DNA of 33,401 nucleotides from positions 1-33,401 of the IMG/VR virus record IMGVR_UViG_3300029787_000185, one strand, 5' to 3'. This document shows positions 5,249 through 25,162 of the stretch, in pieces. The notes under the pieces were generated by a model that worked only from the letters and a program-made list of their open reading frames with translations, ran no database searches and was not told the origin of the DNA. This DNA comes from a virus. A program made the translations under genes and the position numbers. The first letter of the stretch is position 1, and the number at the start of each line of letters is the position of its first letter.

Positions 5249-5656
5249 ATGAGTGAACCTGCAAAAGTTGAAACATCAACGCAAAATGCTGATATATCTA
5301 AAACAAATGAAGATAAAACAGCAAAACAATTACCAATACCAAAAGGTTATAAAATCTTAATAGCTCTTCCAGAGCCAGAAGAAAAATCAAAAGGTGGAAT
5401 TATAAAAGCATCTCAAACATTACAAGTTGAAGAAGTTGGTTCTATCGTTGGTTTTATTTTAGAAATGGGAGAAGACTGCTATCAAGATAAAAAACGATTT
5501 CCAAATGGTCCTTATTGTAAAAAGGGCGATTGGATTATTATGCGTTCTTATTCAGGTACTAGATTTAAAGTACATGGAAAAGAATTTCGTTTAATCAATG
5601 ATGACAGTGTAGAAGCTGTTGTTGAAGACCCAAGAGGTATCGTAAAGGTAATTTAA
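5249..5656 (+). CDS. GroES-like co-chaperonin
   Basis: The 135-residue protein has a Cpn10/GroES domain from about residue 30. Visible features are 'PKGYKILIALPEPEEKSKGGII' (mobile loop and GGI motif region), 'VGSIVGFILEMGEDCYQD' matching the 'VxVG' strand and turn, 'KKGDWIIM', and a final 'EFRLINDDSVEAVV' like GroES 'ILxxxDILAIV'. The first 30 residues are a low-complexity lead-in. By analogy with T4 gp31 it could cap the host GroEL and help fold the capsid protein; it sits within the head genes, between portal and scaffold. No GroEL is encoded here. An AAGGAGA ribosome site lies upstream of the ATG. Confidence 0.75.
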   Translation: MSEPAKVETSTQNADISKTNEDKTAKQLPIPKGYKILIALPEPEEKSKGGIIKASQTLQVEEVGSIVGFILEMGEDCYQDKKRFPNGPYCKKGDWIIMRSYSGTRFKVHGKEFRLINDDSVEAVVEDPRGIVKVI

Positions 5657-17691: not shown

Positions 17692-18399
17692 ATGAATGAA
17701 GGTGAATTTCAGATTCATACTATGCCTTCGGTATATGTATTAGAAGCACAAATGCCGCAGCAAATGATTGATAATGTTAATGATTATATGGACGAATATA
17801 GAAAAGATAAAAATAAAGAATCATTAGCAAAAACTTTAGTAGGGCAAATAGATAAAGGAGAACAATTACTGTTAGACCACAATGATAAAAGAATGGTTGA
17901 ATATAATAATTTTATCTGTCAGCTTGGTGTTGAATATATTAATCATTTTAGTAGTTCAGGGAATAATTTTAAAAATCCGAAACAAGTTCAGATAGATGAA
18001 ACTTGGTCAGTACATAGTTACGATGGAGATTACAACCCTATACATGACCACGGCACTAAAACACTTATGGGTATATCTACTACAGCTTGGACTAAAGTAC
18101 CGCCACAAATAGGTGCAAAAGCTACAGCTAATTCACCTACTTATTCGCTATATAACGAAAGCGGACATTCAGATGGCTGTATAGCATTTCAATACGGACA
18201 AGTATCAGTTATAGATAGTGAAAGATTAAAACCAGCTCAATCATTTGTTATGACCCCAGAAGTAGGAAAACTATTAGTGTTTCCTTCTTGGTTACAACAC
18301 ATGGTCTATCCCTTCAAAGGTGAAGGAGAAAGACGAACCATCGCATCTAACTTAAATTGTTTTGATGTGCAACAACCATTGCCTGAAGAAGTGCAATAA
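17692..18399 (+). CDS. Putative 2OG-Fe(II) oxygenase
   Basis: The 235-residue protein fits the phage and marine-bacterial 2-oxoglutarate/Fe(II) oxygenase family (PF13759-like). Seen directly: 'WSVHSYDGDYNPIHDHG' with H118 and H120, 'PEVGKLLVFPSWLQHMVYPF' with H203, and 'GERRTIASNLN' with Arg 214/215, in the positions of the iron ligands and the 2-oxoglutarate-binding Arg. Such enzymes hydroxylate or oxidise unknown substrates in phage-infected cells; cyanophages commonly carry them. Targets cannot be read from the sequence. It is the first auxiliary gene after the fibre block. Confidence 0.75.
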   Translation: MNEGEFQIHTMPSVYVLEAQMPQQMIDNVNDYMDEYRKDKNKESLAKTLVGQIDKGEQLLLDHNDKRMVEYNNFICQLGVEYINHFSSSGNNFKNPKQVQIDETWSVHSYDGDYNPIHDHGTKTLMGISTTAWTKVPPQIGAKATANSPTYSLYNESGHSDGCIAFQYGQVSVIDSERLKPAQSFVMTPEVGKLLVFPSWLQHMVYPFKGEGERRTIASNLNCFDVQQPLPEEVQ

Positions 18400-18586: not shown

Positions 18587-18747
18587 TGAGTTGGTTAAGT
18601 AATATGTGGGACAAAGTTACTGGAACTGAAAAAGTTAAAGTAAGAACTAGAAACAAAAAAGGTCATTATGTGGCTGATGATAAATCAACACTAGATGTTG
18701 ATGAAGCTTGGACTACTAAAAGAGTTAAAAGTTCTAGTAAAAAATAA
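18586..18747 (+). CDS. Small charged protein, unknown
   Basis: A 53-residue protein, too short for many gene finders but with coupled starts on both sides (TAATG at 18584-18588 and 18745-18749). Sequence: 'SWLSNMWDKVTGTEKVKV' then 'RTRNKKGHYVADDKSTLDVD' and a basic Ser/Lys tail. It is probably a real gene by its frame continuity and codon use. I cannot suggest a function. Confidence 0.55.
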   Translation: MSWLSNMWDKVTGTEKVKVRTRNKKGHYVADDKSTLDVDEAWTTKRVKSSSKK

Positions 18748-19127
18748 TGGCTAAATCACCTGATGCGTTTGTTTATAAAGCTACGCTAGAAAGAATAGTA
18801 GATGGAGATACATTTGATTGCTGTCTTGATTTAGGCTTTGATGTAAAACTACATAAACAGCGTGTCAGACTTGCTGGTATAGATACTCCTGAAAGTAGAA
18901 CTAGAGATTTAGCAGAAAAAAAATTAGGTCTTGCTGCAAAAGAAAGACTTAAAGAACTTTGTATTGGAAGTATAAAAATTAAATCTTTAGGTAAAGGTAA
19001 ATATGGTCGCATACTAGGAATACCTTATACAGAAGATGGTAATGATATATGTCAAATGCTTATTAAAGAAGGTCATGCCGTTGAATATCATGGAGGAACT
19101 AAGACTAAAGTTTGGGGTGATTACTAA
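18747..19127 (+). CDS. Staphylococcal-nuclease-like protein
   Basis: The 126-residue protein has the SNase fold pattern (PF00565). Residues in the positions of the staphylococcal enzyme's active site are visible: D21 (VDGDTF), R41 and D46 (RLAGID), E49 (TPES), and R88 (GRILG). The tail 'LIKEGHAVEYHGG' is also typical. These enzymes cut DNA and RNA in a calcium-dependent way. I see no secretion signal, so it should act in the infected cell, where it could degrade host nucleic acid to recycle nucleotides (inference). Other marine phages carry this gene. Coupled at both ends by TAATG. Confidence 0.85.
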   Translation: MAKSPDAFVYKATLERIVDGDTFDCCLDLGFDVKLHKQRVRLAGIDTPESRTRDLAEKKLGLAAKERLKELCIGSIKIKSLGKGKYGRILGIPYTEDGNDICQMLIKEGHAVEYHGGTKTKVWGDY

Positions 19128-19477
19128 TGGAATCAGCTGTTACTTTAATTCAAGAAGTAGGCTTTCCGATTGCAGCTGCTATAGGGCTTGGTTGGTTTAT
19201 ATATAAACTTATTATGCGTATTGTAGATGGCATGGAAACTAAACTAGATACTGTTGATGAAAAAGTAGAAAACCAAATAGCAGCAATAGAAGAACGACTA
19301 GGCACAAAACTTGATTCACAACATGGAATATTAGTAGCATTGATAGATAGAATAAGAAGTCTTGATAATGAAATTATAAGACAAGATACTTTAATTAAAA
19401 CTATTTTAGGTGTACCACAACTTATAGATAGTAATAAAATAGCAAAGGCGAATAGAGATGACCAAAGAAAAGATTGA
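19127..19477 (+). CDS. Membrane-anchored coiled-coil protein
   Basis: The 116-residue protein has an N-terminal membrane segment ('VGFPIAAAIGLGWFIYKLIM', residues 11-30), then a coiled coil with heptad spacing ('METKLDTVDEKVENQIAAIE' onward to about 95). It resembles XhlA-like or holin-associated proteins by layout only. The last 20 bases overlap the start of the CsgF-like gene, so this gene is the leading neighbour of the curli cassette. Whether it belongs to the cassette or to lysis is open. Confidence 0.6.
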   Translation: MESAVTLIQEVGFPIAAAIGLGWFIYKLIMRIVDGMETKLDTVDEKVENQIAAIEERLGTKLDSQHGILVALIDRIRSLDNEIIRQDTLIKTILGVPQLIDSNKIAKANRDDQRKD

Positions 19478-19958
19478 CCCAAATGAATTAGAAAAAACTA
19501 GAATAGCTATATGGGCTTTTTTTATAGGTGCTATTATGTTTATATCTATTATAGCTATGAATTTAAAAGCAGATACAATAACTTTTAAATTTAAGTCTCC
19601 TAGTTTTAATGGTGTTGGTACTAGCTCACATTATTTAACTATAGAAAATCAACAGTACACTCGTAAGCTTACTCTTAAAGAAGAAATAAAAGCTTTACAA
19701 GAAGAAATAGAAAGAGAAAAAGAAAATTCTACACTTGCTAGATTTTTGCGTAATTTAGAATCAAGAGTATATGCAGAACTATCAAGACAATTAGTTAATA
19801 ATCTTTTTGGTGAAACACCATCTAACTCAGGAACAATAACTTTAGAAGGCAACACCATAGAATATACAAGCGATGGCGTAACATTAACACTTAAAATAAC
19901 GGAAGCAGATGGAACAATTACTGAAATTACGATACCTATTGGTACTTTTTTGTTCTAG
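19458..19958 (+). CDS. csgF: CsgF-like curli assembly factor
   Basis: The 166-residue protein matches CsgF in three places. 'TITFKFKSPSFNG' (residues 40-52) corresponds to the start of mature E. coli CsgF (GTMTFQFRNPNFGG), the part that inserts into the CsgG channel. 'AELSRQLVNNLFG' fits the central helix, and 'TITLEGNTIEYTSDGVTLTL' with 'GTITEITIP' fits the beta end. It has a signal peptide or anchor at 14-36, with 'KA' before the DTITF as a plausible cleavage point. Unusual: an inserted charged coiled coil (about 70-92). In curli systems CsgF sits at the cell surface on CsgG and couples secretion to fibre nucleation. It is followed by csgG, as expected. Confidence 0.8.
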   Translation: MTKEKIDPNELEKTRIAIWAFFIGAIMFISIIAMNLKADTITFKFKSPSFNGVGTSSHYLTIENQQYTRKLTLKEEIKALQEEIEREKENSTLARFLRNLESRVYAELSRQLVNNLFGETPSNSGTITLEGNTIEYTSDGVTLTLKITEADGTITEITIPIGTFLF

Positions 19959-20781
19959 TTGTTCTATATTTGACCAGCTTGAAGATACATACGAACAAAG
20001 ATTTGAAGCACATAACATTGTAAATATATCTGAATTACAATCAGAAGAACTTGCTAATGTACCGCAACCAATATTAAAACCTGTAGTAGCTGTATATCCA
20101 ACAGCATTTACAGACCAAACAGGACAGCGTAAAAGTAATAGTGAATTTGCTTTATTTAGTACAGCAATAACTCAACAACCAAATGCTTTACTTATAAGAG
20201 CACTTAAACACGCAGGTAATGGAGAATTTTTTACAGTAGTTGAACGAGTAGGATTAGACAACCTCACAAAAGAACGACAGCTTATAAGGTCTGCTAGAGA
20301 ACAAACTTTATCAGATGAAGAAAAAAAGAAAGCATTAAGACCTTTGTTATTTGCTGGAGTCTTAATTGAAGGTGCTGTAATATCTTACGAAACAAATTTA
20401 ACTACAGGTGGTGTAGGAGCACGATATTTAGGTATAGGCAAAAGCGTACAATATAGAGAAGATAGTGTAGCAATAACTTTACGCATGGTATCAGTAGCCA
20501 CAGGAGAAATTCTAATAGAAGTAATGACTGAAAAAACTATATTTAGTTATGGTAAATCAGAAGATGTATTTCGTTTTATAGAAGCAGGGACAGAACTTGT
20601 TGAAATAGAAATGGGTAATTCCAGAAATGAATCAACAACTATAGCTTTAATGAAGGCAATAGAAAGTGCTGTATTAGAAATAATTAATGTCGGATACGAC
20701 AGGAGTTTTTGGAAACATGAAAAAATTAAAATTGATAAGCCTGATTGTGATGCTGAGTGCATTGACAATATACGGGGCTGA
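19909..20781 (+). CDS. csgG: CsgG-like outer-membrane curli secretion channel
   Basis: This 290-residue protein is clearly CsgG: 'TTGGVGARYLGIGKSVQYRE' (166-184), 'ITLRMVSVATGEIL' (189-202), 'EKTIFSYGKSEDVFRFIEAG' (208-227) and 'ALMKAIESAVLEIINVGYDR' (246-265) track E. coli CsgG closely. The N-terminus (LLVLFCSSC) is a lipoprotein signal with a likely lipidated Cys 18, though -3 is an unusual Cys. CsgG forms a nine-subunit pore that exports curli subunits. In the constriction loop, F83 lies at the position of Phe56 of mature E. coli CsgG, but the Tyr51 and Asn55 equivalents are not kept. The first 50 bases overlap csgF. CsgE and a curli regulator are not seen. Confidence 0.92.
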   Translation: MEQLLKLRYLLVLFCSSCSIFDQLEDTYEQRFEAHNIVNISELQSEELANVPQPILKPVVAVYPTAFTDQTGQRKSNSEFALFSTAITQQPNALLIRALKHAGNGEFFTVVERVGLDNLTKERQLIRSAREQTLSDEEKKKALRPLLFAGVLIEGAVISYETNLTTGGVGARYLGIGKSVQYREDSVAITLRMVSVATGEILIEVMTEKTIFSYGKSEDVFRFIEAGTELVEIEMGNSRNESTTIALMKAIESAVLEIINVGYDRSFWKHEKIKIDKPDCDAECIDNIRG

Positions 20782-21448
20782 TAACGAAATATATGTAGAC
20801 CAGTCAGGTACTGGTGCAAATATAGACCTAGAGCAACTAGGTATATCTAATATTATAGGTGGTTTAAATTCAACTGCTGGTAGTTTAAATCCTTTTGATT
20901 TAGATGGTAACAGTATGACACTTGATATAAATATGATAGGTGCAACTAATAAGTTTCTTGGCGATATATTTGCTGATAACTTTACAGGTTTTTATGAATT
21001 TGATGGTGGCACTAATTTATTTACTATTCAAGTTGACCCTACAGATTCTTATAGTTCAGATGGTTCAGACCAAAATGTTGATGTTACAGGTAGTGGTAAT
21101 ACATTTACTTTAAATCAAGGCACAAGTGCAATAGCAACCAATCTTAATTTAGATTGGATTATTCAAGGTTCTAATAATACAGTTACATCAAATATTAATA
21201 TTGATGGAGCAACTAACTATATGGATATAGATGGCTCTGATAATACAGTTACTTATACAGGTACAGGTGTTACAGCATCAGCAGGTGGATATTTCTATTT
21301 AGACCACACAGGCGGTTCAAGAACTTTTAATATTCAACAACTGAGCACCCAAGATAATGACTGGCTTAAAATTATTTCAGTCGGTGGTACTGCTGCTTCT
21401 ACTGTTTGTGTCGTTCAAAACGACCAAGGTACAAGCACAAGCTGCTGA
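20717..21448 (+). CDS. Secreted curlin-like protein (putative CsgG substrate)
   Basis: I start this 243-residue protein at ATG 20717, after AGGAG at 20700-20704, since that gives a clean Sec signal (MKKLKLISLIVMLSALTIYG, cut near Ala 21). The first mature repeat, 'NEIYVDQSGTGANIDLEQLG' then 'ISN', has the curlin layout of Asn, Gln-x-Gly, Asn and Gln-x-Gly. Later parts keep weaker forms ('GSGNTFTLNQG', 'GSNNTVTSNINIDGATN', 'GSDNTVTYTGTG'), suggesting a beta-solenoid. Two Cys lie near the end. It is directly downstream of csgG, so it is the natural export substrate. The homology is distant, so 'curlin-like' is my inference; a secreted beta-solenoid with another use is possible. Confidence 0.6.
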   Translation: MKKLKLISLIVMLSALTIYGADNEIYVDQSGTGANIDLEQLGISNIIGGLNSTAGSLNPFDLDGNSMTLDINMIGATNKFLGDIFADNFTGFYEFDGGTNLFTIQVDPTDSYSSDGSDQNVDVTGSGNTFTLNQGTSAIATNLNLDWIIQGSNNTVTSNINIDGATNYMDIDGSDNTVTYTGTGVTASAGGYFYLDHTGGSRTFNIQQLSTQDNDWLKIISVGGTAASTVCVVQNDQGTSTSC

Positions 21449-22475
21449 TATTGGAGATATATCTGAGCTAAATGGTTCAGCACAAATTGTAAGAGATAAA
21501 CCTTACGAAGCAGATTTAAAGTTTGCAATACAAAGTAATGACGAAGCTATAACAACTGATGGAAGAATGGCTATTACTTTTTTAGATGACTCAATAGTTA
21601 AATTAACAGAACATTCACAATTACTTATTGATGAATATATATATGACCCTGACCCATCTAAAACAAAAATGGCTCTTACTTTTGGATTAGGTACAGCTAG
21701 ATTTATTACGGGCAATCTTAATAAGATAGATAAACAAAACATATCACTTAAAACACCTACTGCAAATATAGCTATTAGAGGGACTGATTTTACAGCTACA
21801 GTTGATGAATTAGGGCGTAGCCTTATAATATTGTTACCTGATGCTCTAGGGCTTTCTAGTGGCGAAATAGAGGTAGTTACTGCTATGGGTACTGTTTTAC
21901 TTAACAAACCTTATGAAGCTACTACAGTAAGTGTATTTGAATCAGCACCATCTAAACCAGTTATATTAGATTTAACGCTTGATGTTATAGACAATATGTT
22001 AATTGTTACTCCGCCTAAAGAAGAAGTTACAATAGAAGAAGAAACTACAAGTACAAAAACAGATAGTGTTTTAGATTTTAATGATTTAGATATAGATTAT
22101 TTAGCAGAAGATTTTTTAAAAGAAAATAATTTAGAGTTTACTGAATTAGATATTAATTATCTTGATGTAAATTACCTAGAAGATTTGTTAAATGTGCTTG
22201 ATGCATTAGCAATTGCAGAAGAAGAAGACCAGTTAGCACAAGCTACTAGCATACAAATAGCAGGAACATTATTAGGTAAAGACCCTGATACTCAAATTAC
22301 AACATTAATAACTGGTAATGTTATTAGTTTGAGAAGACAAGTAAATGAAAGTGTTAGATTAGATTTAGATGGTGGAAATATTTATACAGTAATATTTATT
22401 CAAGATGGTGTTTCTAATGTAATAAAAGTTAATGGTGGTGGTGATTCAATAATAACTATCACTCAGAGTGATTAA
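21357..22475 (+). CDS. FecR-domain periplasmic protein
   Basis: The 372-residue protein has a Sec signal (hydrophobic core at 9-19, cut near 'QAQA' 26-29) and then a FecR domain (PF04773-like): 'GDISELNGSAQIVRD', 'DEAITTDGRMAITFLDDSIV', 'LTFGLGTARFITGNL', and the diagnostic 'TPTANIAIRGTDFTATVDE' (133-151). After that comes an acidic, Leu/Tyr-rich linker with repeated 'LDIDYL/LDINYL/LDVNYL' words (243-275). It ends in a beta-rich part finishing 'GGDSIITITQSD'. FecR domains act as periplasmic signal relays. In bacteria FecR proteins are often neighbours of CHASE2-cyclases, as here, since the next gene begins at the very next base. Confidence 0.8.
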   Translation: MTGLKLFQSVVLLLLLFVSFKTTKVQAQAADIGDISELNGSAQIVRDKPYEADLKFAIQSNDEAITTDGRMAITFLDDSIVKLTEHSQLLIDEYIYDPDPSKTKMALTFGLGTARFITGNLNKIDKQNISLKTPTANIAIRGTDFTATVDELGRSLIILLPDALGLSSGEIEVVTAMGTVLLNKPYEATTVSVFESAPSKPVILDLTLDVIDNMLIVTPPKEEVTIEEETTSTKTDSVLDFNDLDIDYLAEDFLKENNLEFTELDINYLDVNYLEDLLNVLDALAIAEEEDQLAQATSIQIAGTLLGKDPDTQITTLITGNVISLRRQVNESVRLDLDGGNIYTVIFIQDGVSNVIKVNGGGDSIITITQSD

Positions 22476-24230
22476 ATGAAACGACTAATATTACCTATAC
22501 TTATAATACTAATGTTACCTTTGTTATTTCAATCTACACCAACAGAAATAATAAAATTAAAAACATTTGATGCTTTAGTAAAAACACCAGAACCATCAGG
22601 TAATTTTGTAATACTTAACATTACAGAAGAAGATGTAGAACGAGAAGGTGGTTATCCATTACCTAGACAAAGACTTGCTGAAATACAATTAGATATTATA
22701 GGTAAAGGTGCTTTAGGTGTAGGTTGGGTTATATCTTTTCCGCAACCAGATAGAATGGGTGGTGATGAAAACTTTGCAAGGTCTTTAGGTTATGCACCAT
22801 CTGTTATAGCTATGTTTGAAGATGGCAAAGGTAAATATCCAAAAGCAACAGGAACAGTTATCAAAGGTAATGATATTAGTGGTATAGTATCTTTGGGAGT
22901 TAAGGAAAACCTGAACACTCTTAAAAATAATACATTACAGGGTTTAGCCATTGCTCCCATTGAAGTTGACCAACTTGTAAGAAGAATACCTTTACTTGTA
23001 AGCACACCTGATAATGAATGGATACCTAGTTTTGGGACACAAATATATAAAGCTTTATTTAATGTTAAGACTTATATTATAAAAACTAATGATAATGGAA
23101 TATCAGAAATATCAATAAGAGGAATACCACCTGTTAAAACAGATAGTCTTGGTCGCAAATGGATTAGTTGGATAGATACACCACAAACAGATTTAAAAGA
23201 AATGGAAGTAAACGGCAAGTTTGTTTTTGTTGGAGTAACAGCTAATGGAGTTATGCCACAAGTTGCTACACCAGTTGGATTATTAGAACCACATAAAATA
23301 CAAGCAGCATTAGCAGAAAGTATATTAATACAAGATAGTCCTTATATACCTGACTGGGCAATAAGTATTAACCTGTTAATATTTATATTAAGTGTTTTGA
23401 TTGTTTGGTTTGTATTATTTTATTTTGGAATAACATGGGGAATATTATTAAGTTTATTATCTATGTTTGTTACAGGTAGTATTGGGTATTATTTTATACA
23501 AAAAGGTTTATTAATAGATGTTACTTGGAGTTTAATATCTCAATTTATAACAAGCAGTATAGCTTTTTATCTAAGATTTAGAGAACAATATAAACTAAGA
23601 CAACAAATCAAAAAACAGTTTGAACATTATTTAGACCCTAGACAAGTAAAACAATTACAAGATAATCCAGAATTACTTAAACTAGGCGGAGAAAGAAAGT
23701 ATTGTACTTTTCTTTTTACAGATGTAAGAGGGTTTACAAGTTTATCAGAGCAGCTAGAGCCAGAAGAAGTTACTGAAATTATGAACAAAGCTCTTACAAT
23801 ACAAGCTGATGCAGTAAAAAAATATGGTGGAATGGTAGATAAATATATTGGAGATGCCATGATGGCAATATTTAATGCACCAATAGATTTACCTAATCAC
23901 GAAACATCTGCTGTATTATGTGCTATAGAAATAAAAGATGAAATGCAAAAAGCAAATTTAGGTATTGATATAGGCATAGGAATAAATACTGGTGAAGCTG
24001 TTATAGGTAATATGGGCAGCAATACTAGGTTTGATTATTCTGCTATAGGTGATGCAGTAAATCTTGCTGCTAGATTAGAAAGTTCTACTAAAGAAGTTGG
24101 AGAAGATATTGTTATAGGATATAACACTATTAATGTTAAAAACTTTATTAATACAATAACATTAAGAGAATTAAAAAGTATTTATGTAAAAGGTAAAGAA
24201 AAACCTATTAACATATATACAGTATATTAG
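22476..24230 (+). CDS. CHASE2-domain membrane adenylate cyclase
   Basis: The 584-residue protein has an N-terminal membrane segment (5-18), a large periplasmic CHASE2-type sensor (about 25-290, 'FDALVKTPEPSGNFVILNIT' and 'KFVFVGVTANG' are typical), three membrane helices (297-318, 321-341 and 349-366), and a class III cyclase domain (405-584). All key residues are present: metal-binding D416 (FTDVRGF) and D460 (IGDAMMA), adenine-selecting K456 (DKYIGD) and D520 (FDYSAIGD), and catalytic N529 and R533 (DAVNLAARLE). The K/D pair predicts cAMP, not cGMP. It should sense something in the periplasm and make cAMP inside the cell. A membrane cyclase in a phage is unusual. Confidence 0.92.
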   Translation: MKRLILPILIILMLPLLFQSTPTEIIKLKTFDALVKTPEPSGNFVILNITEEDVEREGGYPLPRQRLAEIQLDIIGKGALGVGWVISFPQPDRMGGDENFARSLGYAPSVIAMFEDGKGKYPKATGTVIKGNDISGIVSLGVKENLNTLKNNTLQGLAIAPIEVDQLVRRIPLLVSTPDNEWIPSFGTQIYKALFNVKTYIIKTNDNGISEISIRGIPPVKTDSLGRKWISWIDTPQTDLKEMEVNGKFVFVGVTANGVMPQVATPVGLLEPHKIQAALAESILIQDSPYIPDWAISINLLIFILSVLIVWFVLFYFGITWGILLSLLSMFVTGSIGYYFIQKGLLIDVTWSLISQFITSSIAFYLRFREQYKLRQQIKKQFEHYLDPRQVKQLQDNPELLKLGGERKYCTFLFTDVRGFTSLSEQLEPEEVTEIMNKALTIQADAVKKYGGMVDKYIGDAMMAIFNAPIDLPNHETSAVLCAIEIKDEMQKANLGIDIGIGINTGEAVIGNMGSNTRFDYSAIGDAVNLAARLESSTKEVGEDIVIGYNTINVKNFINTITLRELKSIYVKGKEKPINIYTVY

Positions 24231-24237
24231 GAGTTTT

Positions 24238-24717
24238 ATGAAAGGTTTATTAAAAAATATAGTAGGTGCAGTTGCACCAACATTAGGCACAGCAATTAGT
24301 GGTCCTTTAGGCGGAATGGCTATGGGTAAAATAGCAGAAGTATTAGGCGTATCTAATGACCAAAAATCTGTACAACAAGCAATACAAAATGCCACACCAG
24401 AACAAATGATGGAACTTAAAAAAGCTGAACAAGAGTTTGAAGTTCAAATGAAAGAACTTGATGTAGATGTATTTAAGTTAGAAGTAGCAGACAAACAAAA
24501 TGCTAGAGGTATATTTAGTAAAGATTGGACTGCTCGTATTATAGGTTTATTTACTATAGGTGGATTTCTTGGTTACATATTTTTAGTAACACTACAACCA
24601 CCTGAACAAAACTCTGAAGCATTAATTAACTTAGTGTTAGGTTATTTAGGAGGATTAGCAAGTGCAATTATTTCGTTCTATTTTGGAGCATCTCACACCA
24701 GCGACAAAGGAGAGTAA
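24238..24717 (+). CDS. Holin (3TM, GTA-holin-like)
   Basis: The 159-residue protein has a Gly/Ala-rich hydrophobic N-terminal segment (5-35), a charged helical middle ('NATPEQMMELKKAEQEFEVQ'), and two C-terminal membrane helices ('IIGLFTIGGFLGYIFLVTL' and 'LVLGYLGGLASAIISFYFGA'). 'FSKDWTARIIGLF' before the membrane part and the order of segments match the GTA_holin_3TM type (PF11351-like). It lies one base before the endolysin gene, so together they form the lysis cassette. Holins make lesions in the inner membrane that release or activate the endolysin. Confidence 0.8.
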   Translation: MKGLLKNIVGAVAPTLGTAISGPLGGMAMGKIAEVLGVSNDQKSVQQAIQNATPEQMMELKKAEQEFEVQMKELDVDVFKLEVADKQNARGIFSKDWTARIIGLFTIGGFLGYIFLVTLQPPEQNSEALINLVLGYLGGLASAIISFYFGASHTSDKGE

Positions 24718-24718
24718 C

Positions 24719-25162
24719 ATGAACATATCAAAAGAAGGTATAAACTTAATTAAAAAATTTGAAGGTTGTAAACTTGAAGCTTATAAATGTGCAGCAGGAG
24801 TATGGACTATAGGTTATGGTTCAACTCATGGTATATCAGAAGGTATGAAAATATCACAAGAAAGAGCAGATATGTTATTACTTGAAGATATAGAAAAATT
24901 TGAAAAAGCTGTAAACAAAGCAGTTAAAAGAGCTATGGTTCAATGTCAGTTTGATGCTTTAGTTTCTTGGACTTTTAATCTTGGTGAAAGCAATCTTAAT
25001 TCTTCTACTATGTTAAAAAAATTAAACAATCAAGAATACGATGAAGTAATTCCACAAATGAAAAGATGGAACAAAGTCAATGGTCAAGTTAAACAAGGTC
25101 TTGTAAGAAGAAGAGAAGCAGAAGCTTTACTGTATGAAGGTAAAGAATGGCATGAGGTATAA
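24719..25162 (+). CDS. Endolysin, GH24 lysozyme
   Basis: The 147-residue protein is a GH24 phage lysozyme (P22 gp19 and phage 21 R type): 'LIKKFEGCKLEAYKCAAGVW' then 'TIGYGST'. Catalytic Glu 15 is followed by Cys 24 (the position of T4 Asp 20) and Thr 30, giving the known E-x8-D/C-x5-T pattern. The rest ('VSWTFNLGESNLNSSTMLKK', 'GLVRRREAEALLYEG') is typical. It cuts peptidoglycan at the end of infection. There is no N-terminal signal, so it needs the holin to reach the wall. I use ATG 24719 (GGAGAG before it). No spanin gene is visible nearby. Confidence 0.9.
   Translation: MNISKEGINLIKKFEGCKLEAYKCAAGVWTIGYGSTHGISEGMKISQERADMLLLEDIEKFEKAVNKAVKRAMVQCQFDALVSWTFNLGESNLNSSTMLKKLNNQEYDEVIPQMKRWNKVNGQVKQGLVRRREAEALLYEGKEWHEV

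Follow-up and report, generated by a model that had tools for sequence, protein, structure and literature searches.

The window, i.e. the whole stretch of DNA analysed (33,401 nucleotides), is a 33.4-kb linear virus record, and part of the genome is therefore missing. Its plus strand carries, in order, genes for a membrane protein with a coiled coil, CsgF, CsgG, a curlin-like protein, FecR, a receptor-type cyclase, a holin-like protein and a lysozyme (Table 1). Because the terminase is closest to those of 023Pt_psg01, HTVC027P and HTVC023P, the window is assigned to a fragment of an HTVC023P-type pelagipodophage, i.e. a podophage of SAR11. Could the cyclase be a host gene on a mis-assembled contig? 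This was ruled out, as the genes on either side encode phage head, tail and lysis functions and the gene order is common to many independent contigs.

The order CsgF-CsgG-curlin-FecR-cyclase is fixed across related contigs, and the same genes follow one another in pelagiphage, where the curlin-like gene occupies the place of the annotated curlin-associated proteins of HTVC008M and Melnitz. A promoter scan gave 24 sites vs 40 expected in shuffled sequences. Elsewhere in the window, a GroES-like chaperonin gene (Cpn10, E 6e-9; 5249-5656) lies between the portal and major head genes. Just upstream of the curli module are a 2OG-Fe(II) oxygenase (17692-18399) and a staphylococcal-nuclease-like protein (18747-19127), the latter being a frequent neighbour in relatives, where it is sometimes found after the cyclase instead.

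Table 1. Genes and protein features of the curli, cyclase and lysis region, in window positions
Feature	Position	Strand	Basis
Membrane and coiled-coil protein, 116 aa, at head of module	19127..19477	+	
CsgF	19458..19958	+	PF10614, E 4e-16
CsgG, outer-membrane curli secretion pore	19909..20781	+	PF03783, E 1e-49
Curlin-like secreted repeat protein; start at 20717 possible	20687..21448	+	weak Curlin_rpt and DUF3060 matches
FecR-domain protein, 372 aa, probably periplasmic	21357..22475	+	PF04773, phrog_37870, hydropathy
CHASE2 receptor-type class III adenylate cyclase, 584 aa	22476..24230	+	ORF, Pfam, alignment, AlphaFold2 model, structure matches
CHASE2 domain, residues 11-306, with first membrane helix and part of second	22506..23393	+	Pfam PF05226, model
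Three membrane helices, residues ~296-316, 318-342, 350-382; last runs into cytosolic linker	23361..23621	+	hydropathy, model
Class III cyclase catalytic domain, residues 409-577	23700..24206	+	Pfam PF00211, residue counts
Catalytic-domain residues D416, K456, D460, D520, N529, R533	23721, 23841, 23853, 24033, 24060, 24072	+	
Holin-like protein, two C-terminal membrane helices	24238..24717	+	phrog_1544 (function unknown); holin inferred from membrane layout and position
Phage lysozyme (endolysin); start probably ATG 24719	24662..25162	+	PF00959, E 2e-47; phrog_7

The receptor cyclase

The cyclase gene is translated without a break, and the reverse strand across it has stops throughout; a frame break or a strand artefact is thus ruled out. 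The CHASE2 match (E 5e-25) is above the curated Pfam cut-off, and the Guanylate_cyc match (E 5e-20) reaches 72 bits vs a cut-off of 21.9. Hydropathy places membrane stretches near residues 4-22, 296-314 and 318-341, to which the AlphaFold2 model, built with 48 aligned relatives (mean pLDDT 87, pTM 0.69), adds the long helix at 350-382. The protein consists of an N-terminal membrane helix, the CHASE2 domain (periplasmic), three membrane helices and then the cyclase. One plus three membrane helices, with a cytosolic cyclase, is the usual CHASE2 layout. The best matches of the model among solved structures are all class III cyclases, i.e. Cya2, CyaB of P. aeruginosa, OaPAC and CyaC; Cya2, a guanylyl cyclase according to the PDB, has E at the position equivalent to K456.

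The active site carries the two metal-binding aspartates, the adenine-selecting Lys/Asp pair (K456/D520) and the transition-state Asn/Arg of class III cyclases. The initial annotation had named six residues (D416, D460, K456, D520, N529 and R533), and every one of them is in place. Its main proposal, that the phage bears a complete membrane adenylate cyclase with a periplasmic CHASE2 domain and that the enzyme is predicted to be active, is borne out by the unbroken frame, the two Pfam domains and these residues. The protein is a predicted class III adenylate cyclase and is very probably active; we infer catalysis, specificity for ATP, a homodimeric arrangement and FecR as the input.

Conservation was followed in an alignment of 83 phage proteins, with 82 phage relatives taken from the loci retrieved. 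No variation is seen at D416, K456, D460 or R533, and D520 and N529 are kept in 82/83. All six residues are present in 81 of the 82 relatives, which rules out a degenerate active site for these and for the present copy. The exception is Melnitz, a phage of OM43 bacteria, whose cyclase (L003, 11917-13968) has S at both D520 and N529 and may for that reason be inactive or altered; its C-terminus is ~100 aa longer. In comparisons with the two closest relatives, dN/dS comes to 0.15 and 0.14 for the whole protein and ~0.05 for the cyclase domain, and the median for the domain is 0.14 over 764 pairs. These values point to purifying selection, i.e. selection for function rather than drift. Phage and cellular cyclases form a clean split in the tree (100/100).

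The curli module and published clusters

That the cyclase is unreported is not supported: the gene and its cluster are already known in this phage group, as an earlier annotation and an earlier cluster description predate the present finding. The homologue in HTVC008M (AGE60353.1) was deposited as 'adenylate/guanylyl cyclase'; that of Melnitz is QZI94833.1. A curli cluster was reported from pelagimyophages in 2020 (PMC7029224), and CsgF, CsgG, CsgA/B, FecR and an adenylate cyclase were described in HTVC023P-type podophages and in myophages in 2022 (PMC9599517). The latter work assigns the cluster an alphaproteobacterial origin, with transfer between phage families, and finds the cyclase sometimes absent from phage curli regions. 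The initial annotation was silent on the curli-operon placement of the cyclase and on the lysis genes just downstream.

What is the gene at the head of the module? A histidine kinase, in one or two copies, has been reported at the position before CsgF (PMC9599517). Judged by position, this would be the 116-aa gene, which relatives carry once or twice ahead of CsgF. Its product, with a membrane helix plus a coiled coil, shows no kinase domain even at E 1, so that the gene may have been mislabelled; a short membrane coiled-coil protein at this position is not described in the papers cited here. The module thus departs from the published cluster at this one position, and its other features still place it there. 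The 116-aa protein shows a weak holin-family match (E 0.004).

FecR as a possible partner of the cyclase

The FecR gene abuts the cyclase gene with zero gap. Its product has a signal-peptide-like start and otherwise no hydrophobic stretch by hydropathy, and is for this reason probably a soluble periplasmic protein. FecR stands before the cyclase in nearly all phage loci that have enough flank; none is seen in L056, with 585 bases upstream. Among cellular genomes, the 38 alphaproteobacterial loci with the best-matching cyclases were compared with 20 control stretches taken arbitrarily from the same genomes: a FecR-domain gene lies within ~5 kb in 16/38 vs 0/20 (Fisher p 4e-4). CsgG was found near none of the 38 cellular cyclases. 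As judged from these neighbourhoods, FecR looks like an old partner of these cyclases, with curli not seen beside the cellular ones. The suggestion that the FecR protein encoded upstream could be the periplasmic partner of the cyclase is strengthened by the near-constancy in phage loci and by the cellular association. In S. meliloti, however, the FecR gene smc02177, near cyaD1, is not needed for signal perception (PMC5498481).

How might these parts work together? The reading preferred here, which is considered rather probable, is that of a working CHASE2-type receptor at the inner-membrane end of a phage curli (type VIII secretion) operon, with FecR as the relay to cAMP. During infection the phage would make CsgG/CsgF pores and curlin-like proteins, the adjacent periplasmic FecR would signal to CHASE2 in what condition the pore, the fibre or the envelope is, and cAMP would be formed from ATP in the infected cell by paired cyclase domains. 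Protein signals in S. meliloti pass from outer-membrane NsrA to the CHASE2 cyclases CyaK and CyaD1/D2 (PMC7529298, PMC13001267), and CyaD1 without CHASE2 makes cAMP constitutively (PMC5498481). By analogy with NsrA-CyaK/CyaD1/D2, the outer-membrane CsgG, the secreted curlin-like protein and the periplasmic FecR are candidate inputs of the phage cyclase.

Counted in favour of the curli-operon receptor are the domains and residues, the structural model, dN/dS, the fixed gene order, the cellular FecR association and the NsrA precedent. Counted against it are the loss of D520 and N529 in Melnitz, the failure to find a cAMP receptor (see below), the dispensability of smc02177 and the phage curli regions without a cyclase in PMC9599517.

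The lysis genes downstream

The cyclase ends 7 bases before the holin-like gene, and the lysozyme gene is next. Among the CsgG loci most similar to that of the window, 46/46 of those with at least 5 kb downstream carry FecR, the cyclase and the lysozyme, the lysozyme being downstream of the cyclase; selected in this way, the 46 describe one phage group. HTVC008M and Melnitz have no annotated lysis gene beside the module. PMC9599517 makes no mention of CHASE2, lysozyme, endolysin or holin, and a cyclase directly before a holin-like gene and a lysozyme is not described in PMC9599517, PMC9004378 or PMC7029224.

Could the cyclase take part in the timing of lysis? FecR and CHASE2 would then sense the envelope state or the opening of the CsgG pore, and the moment at which the holin-like protein and the lysozyme act would be tuned by cAMP or by the cyclase itself. 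The 7-base spacing and the regular presence of cyclase and lysozyme in the 46 loci are in line with such a role, as is the proposal, made in 2022 on other grounds, that the curli pore acts in lysis (PMC9004378). However, the adjacency may just mirror a shared late operon, the 46 loci represent few independent events because they are close relatives, and the modules of HTVC008M and Melnitz, as annotated, adjoin no lysis gene. A role in lysis timing is therefore regarded as doubtful.

A putative reader for cAMP

cAMP needs a reader. Searches covered 148 genomes from the family to which a Pelagibacter MAG with a phage contig of this kind belongs; many are incomplete, and 105/148 match a SAR11 16S probe. 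No class I cyclase was found in the 148 genomes. A class III cyclase is present in two, and both copies (L084/L098 and L099/L170) adjoin curli modules on phage-like contigs, so that they do not count as SAR11-encoded cyclases. A Crp-like cAMP receptor was found in none of the 148, in a search that other kinds of receptor would escape. The cNMP-binding domain is present in 11/148 genomes; one protein looks FNR-like by a reading of its sequence, and the remaining ones, of ~870-1002 aa, are unlike Crp. Nine genomes (L094-L097 and five more) encode a conserved ~870-aa protein with the domain, one copy being cut by a contig end; this protein is a possible candidate cAMP reader in those nine hosts. 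A search for the cNMP-binding domain in the window, in HTVC008M and Melnitz and in 13 large related contigs gave nothing.

An effect of the phage cAMP on host transcription or motility, as had been suggested, is weakened, because neither a Crp-like receptor in the 148 genomes nor a phage cNMP-binding domain was found; a Crp route for phage cAMP in SAR11 is not supported. No statement that the host lacks a cAMP receptor was found in PMC9599517, PMC7029224 or PMC9004378. If cAMP is indeed made in cells without a known receptor, either its reader has yet to be recognised or the signal is put to an unusual use. The phage might equip its host with a complete second-messenger signal that the host itself does not produce and for which no host receptor is known; the cAMP would be read by an undescribed phage or host protein, e.g. 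one that sets the moment of lysis according to the condition of the curli pore made by the phage. This is a speculative and rather unlikely scenario.

Is the cyclase then a passenger? The module could have arrived as one block from an alphaproteobacterium, its cyclase signal being irrelevant in SAR11, and both the missing receptor in host and phage and the Melnitz copy without two key residues fit this. Yet purifying selection is strong, the catalytic residues are conserved throughout the relatives apart from Melnitz, and phages with small genomes keep the cyclase at a cost of 1.75 kb. Such evidence makes a passenger distinctly unlikely.

Or is the product something other than cAMP? A cyclic pyrimidine or other nucleotide, of the sort used in Pycsar-like signalling, or a decoy that interferes with a nucleotide-based host defence would be a way around the missing receptor, which invites another product, and PADLOC Pycsar cyclase models do match the catalytic domain (best E 5e-28). 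But the PycC match is confined to the cyclase domain common to the whole class, the three neighbours tested have no PADLOC match, the adenine-selecting K456/D520 pair is conserved and, among relatives with a solved structure, the nearest are ordinary nucleotide cyclases. A Pycsar defence cyclase is thus not favoured, and a product of this kind is very unlikely.

With the curli-operon receptor as the preferred reading, what remains of interest is the apparent absence of a cAMP reader together with the position of the cyclase before lysis genes. The seemingly empty host background makes a role of cAMP unusually clean to test. SAR11 are the most abundant bacteria of the ocean, and the receptor cyclase is common in their phages: relatives, some of them possibly distant, are encoded on at least 597 contig stretches of one viral collection.

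Contigs with curli, FecR and cyclase genes (L084-L089, L170) have been binned into MAGs labelled Pelagibacter, Neomarinimicrobiota, Maricaulis and Flavobacteriaceae. In appearance these are phage contigs, and conclusions drawn from cyclase or curli genes in such MAGs could therefore be misleading. On one of them (L087, 4843-6666) the cyclase frame is split into two ORFs, representing a broken copy or an assembly error.

Comparison with known systems

The phage FecR shares the periplasmic FecR domain (PF04773) with the FecA-FecR-FecI iron citrate system. It differs in that no N-terminal anti-sigma domain is detected, the FecR domain being the sole match, and in having no inner-membrane anchor besides the signal-peptide-like start, its only hydrophobic stretch. 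In addition, the scan of window ORFs, which covered part of the small ones, gave no sigma-factor domain.

In the MtxA neighbourhood of magnetotactic bacteria, a gene is likewise followed by a conserved CHASE2-cyclase gene; that neighbourhood is bacterial and not tied to curli, and the passage describing it makes no mention of FecR (PMC4439547).

CyaD1, CyaD2 and CyaK of S. meliloti are, like the phage protein, receptor-type adenylate cyclases with a CHASE2 sensor. The likeness extends to the locus, as the locus numbers put the FecR gene smc02177 close to cyaD1 (smc02176; PMC5498481). S. meliloti has the cAMP receptor Clr, whereas none was found in the SAR11 genomes or phages searched, and no curli genes are mentioned for its CHASE2 cyclase system.

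Closest is the pelagiphage cluster of PMC9599517, as in HTVC008M and Melnitz. The window cyclase is 34% identical to that of HTVC008M and 31% to that of Melnitz. Unlike the published cluster, the present one has no second curlin gene between FecR and the cyclase, carries a gene without a kinase domain at the 'histidine kinase' position and runs straight into the holin-like gene and the lysozyme. In gene order and gene families the two are the same, and the published cluster, too, is found in HTVC023P-type podophages.
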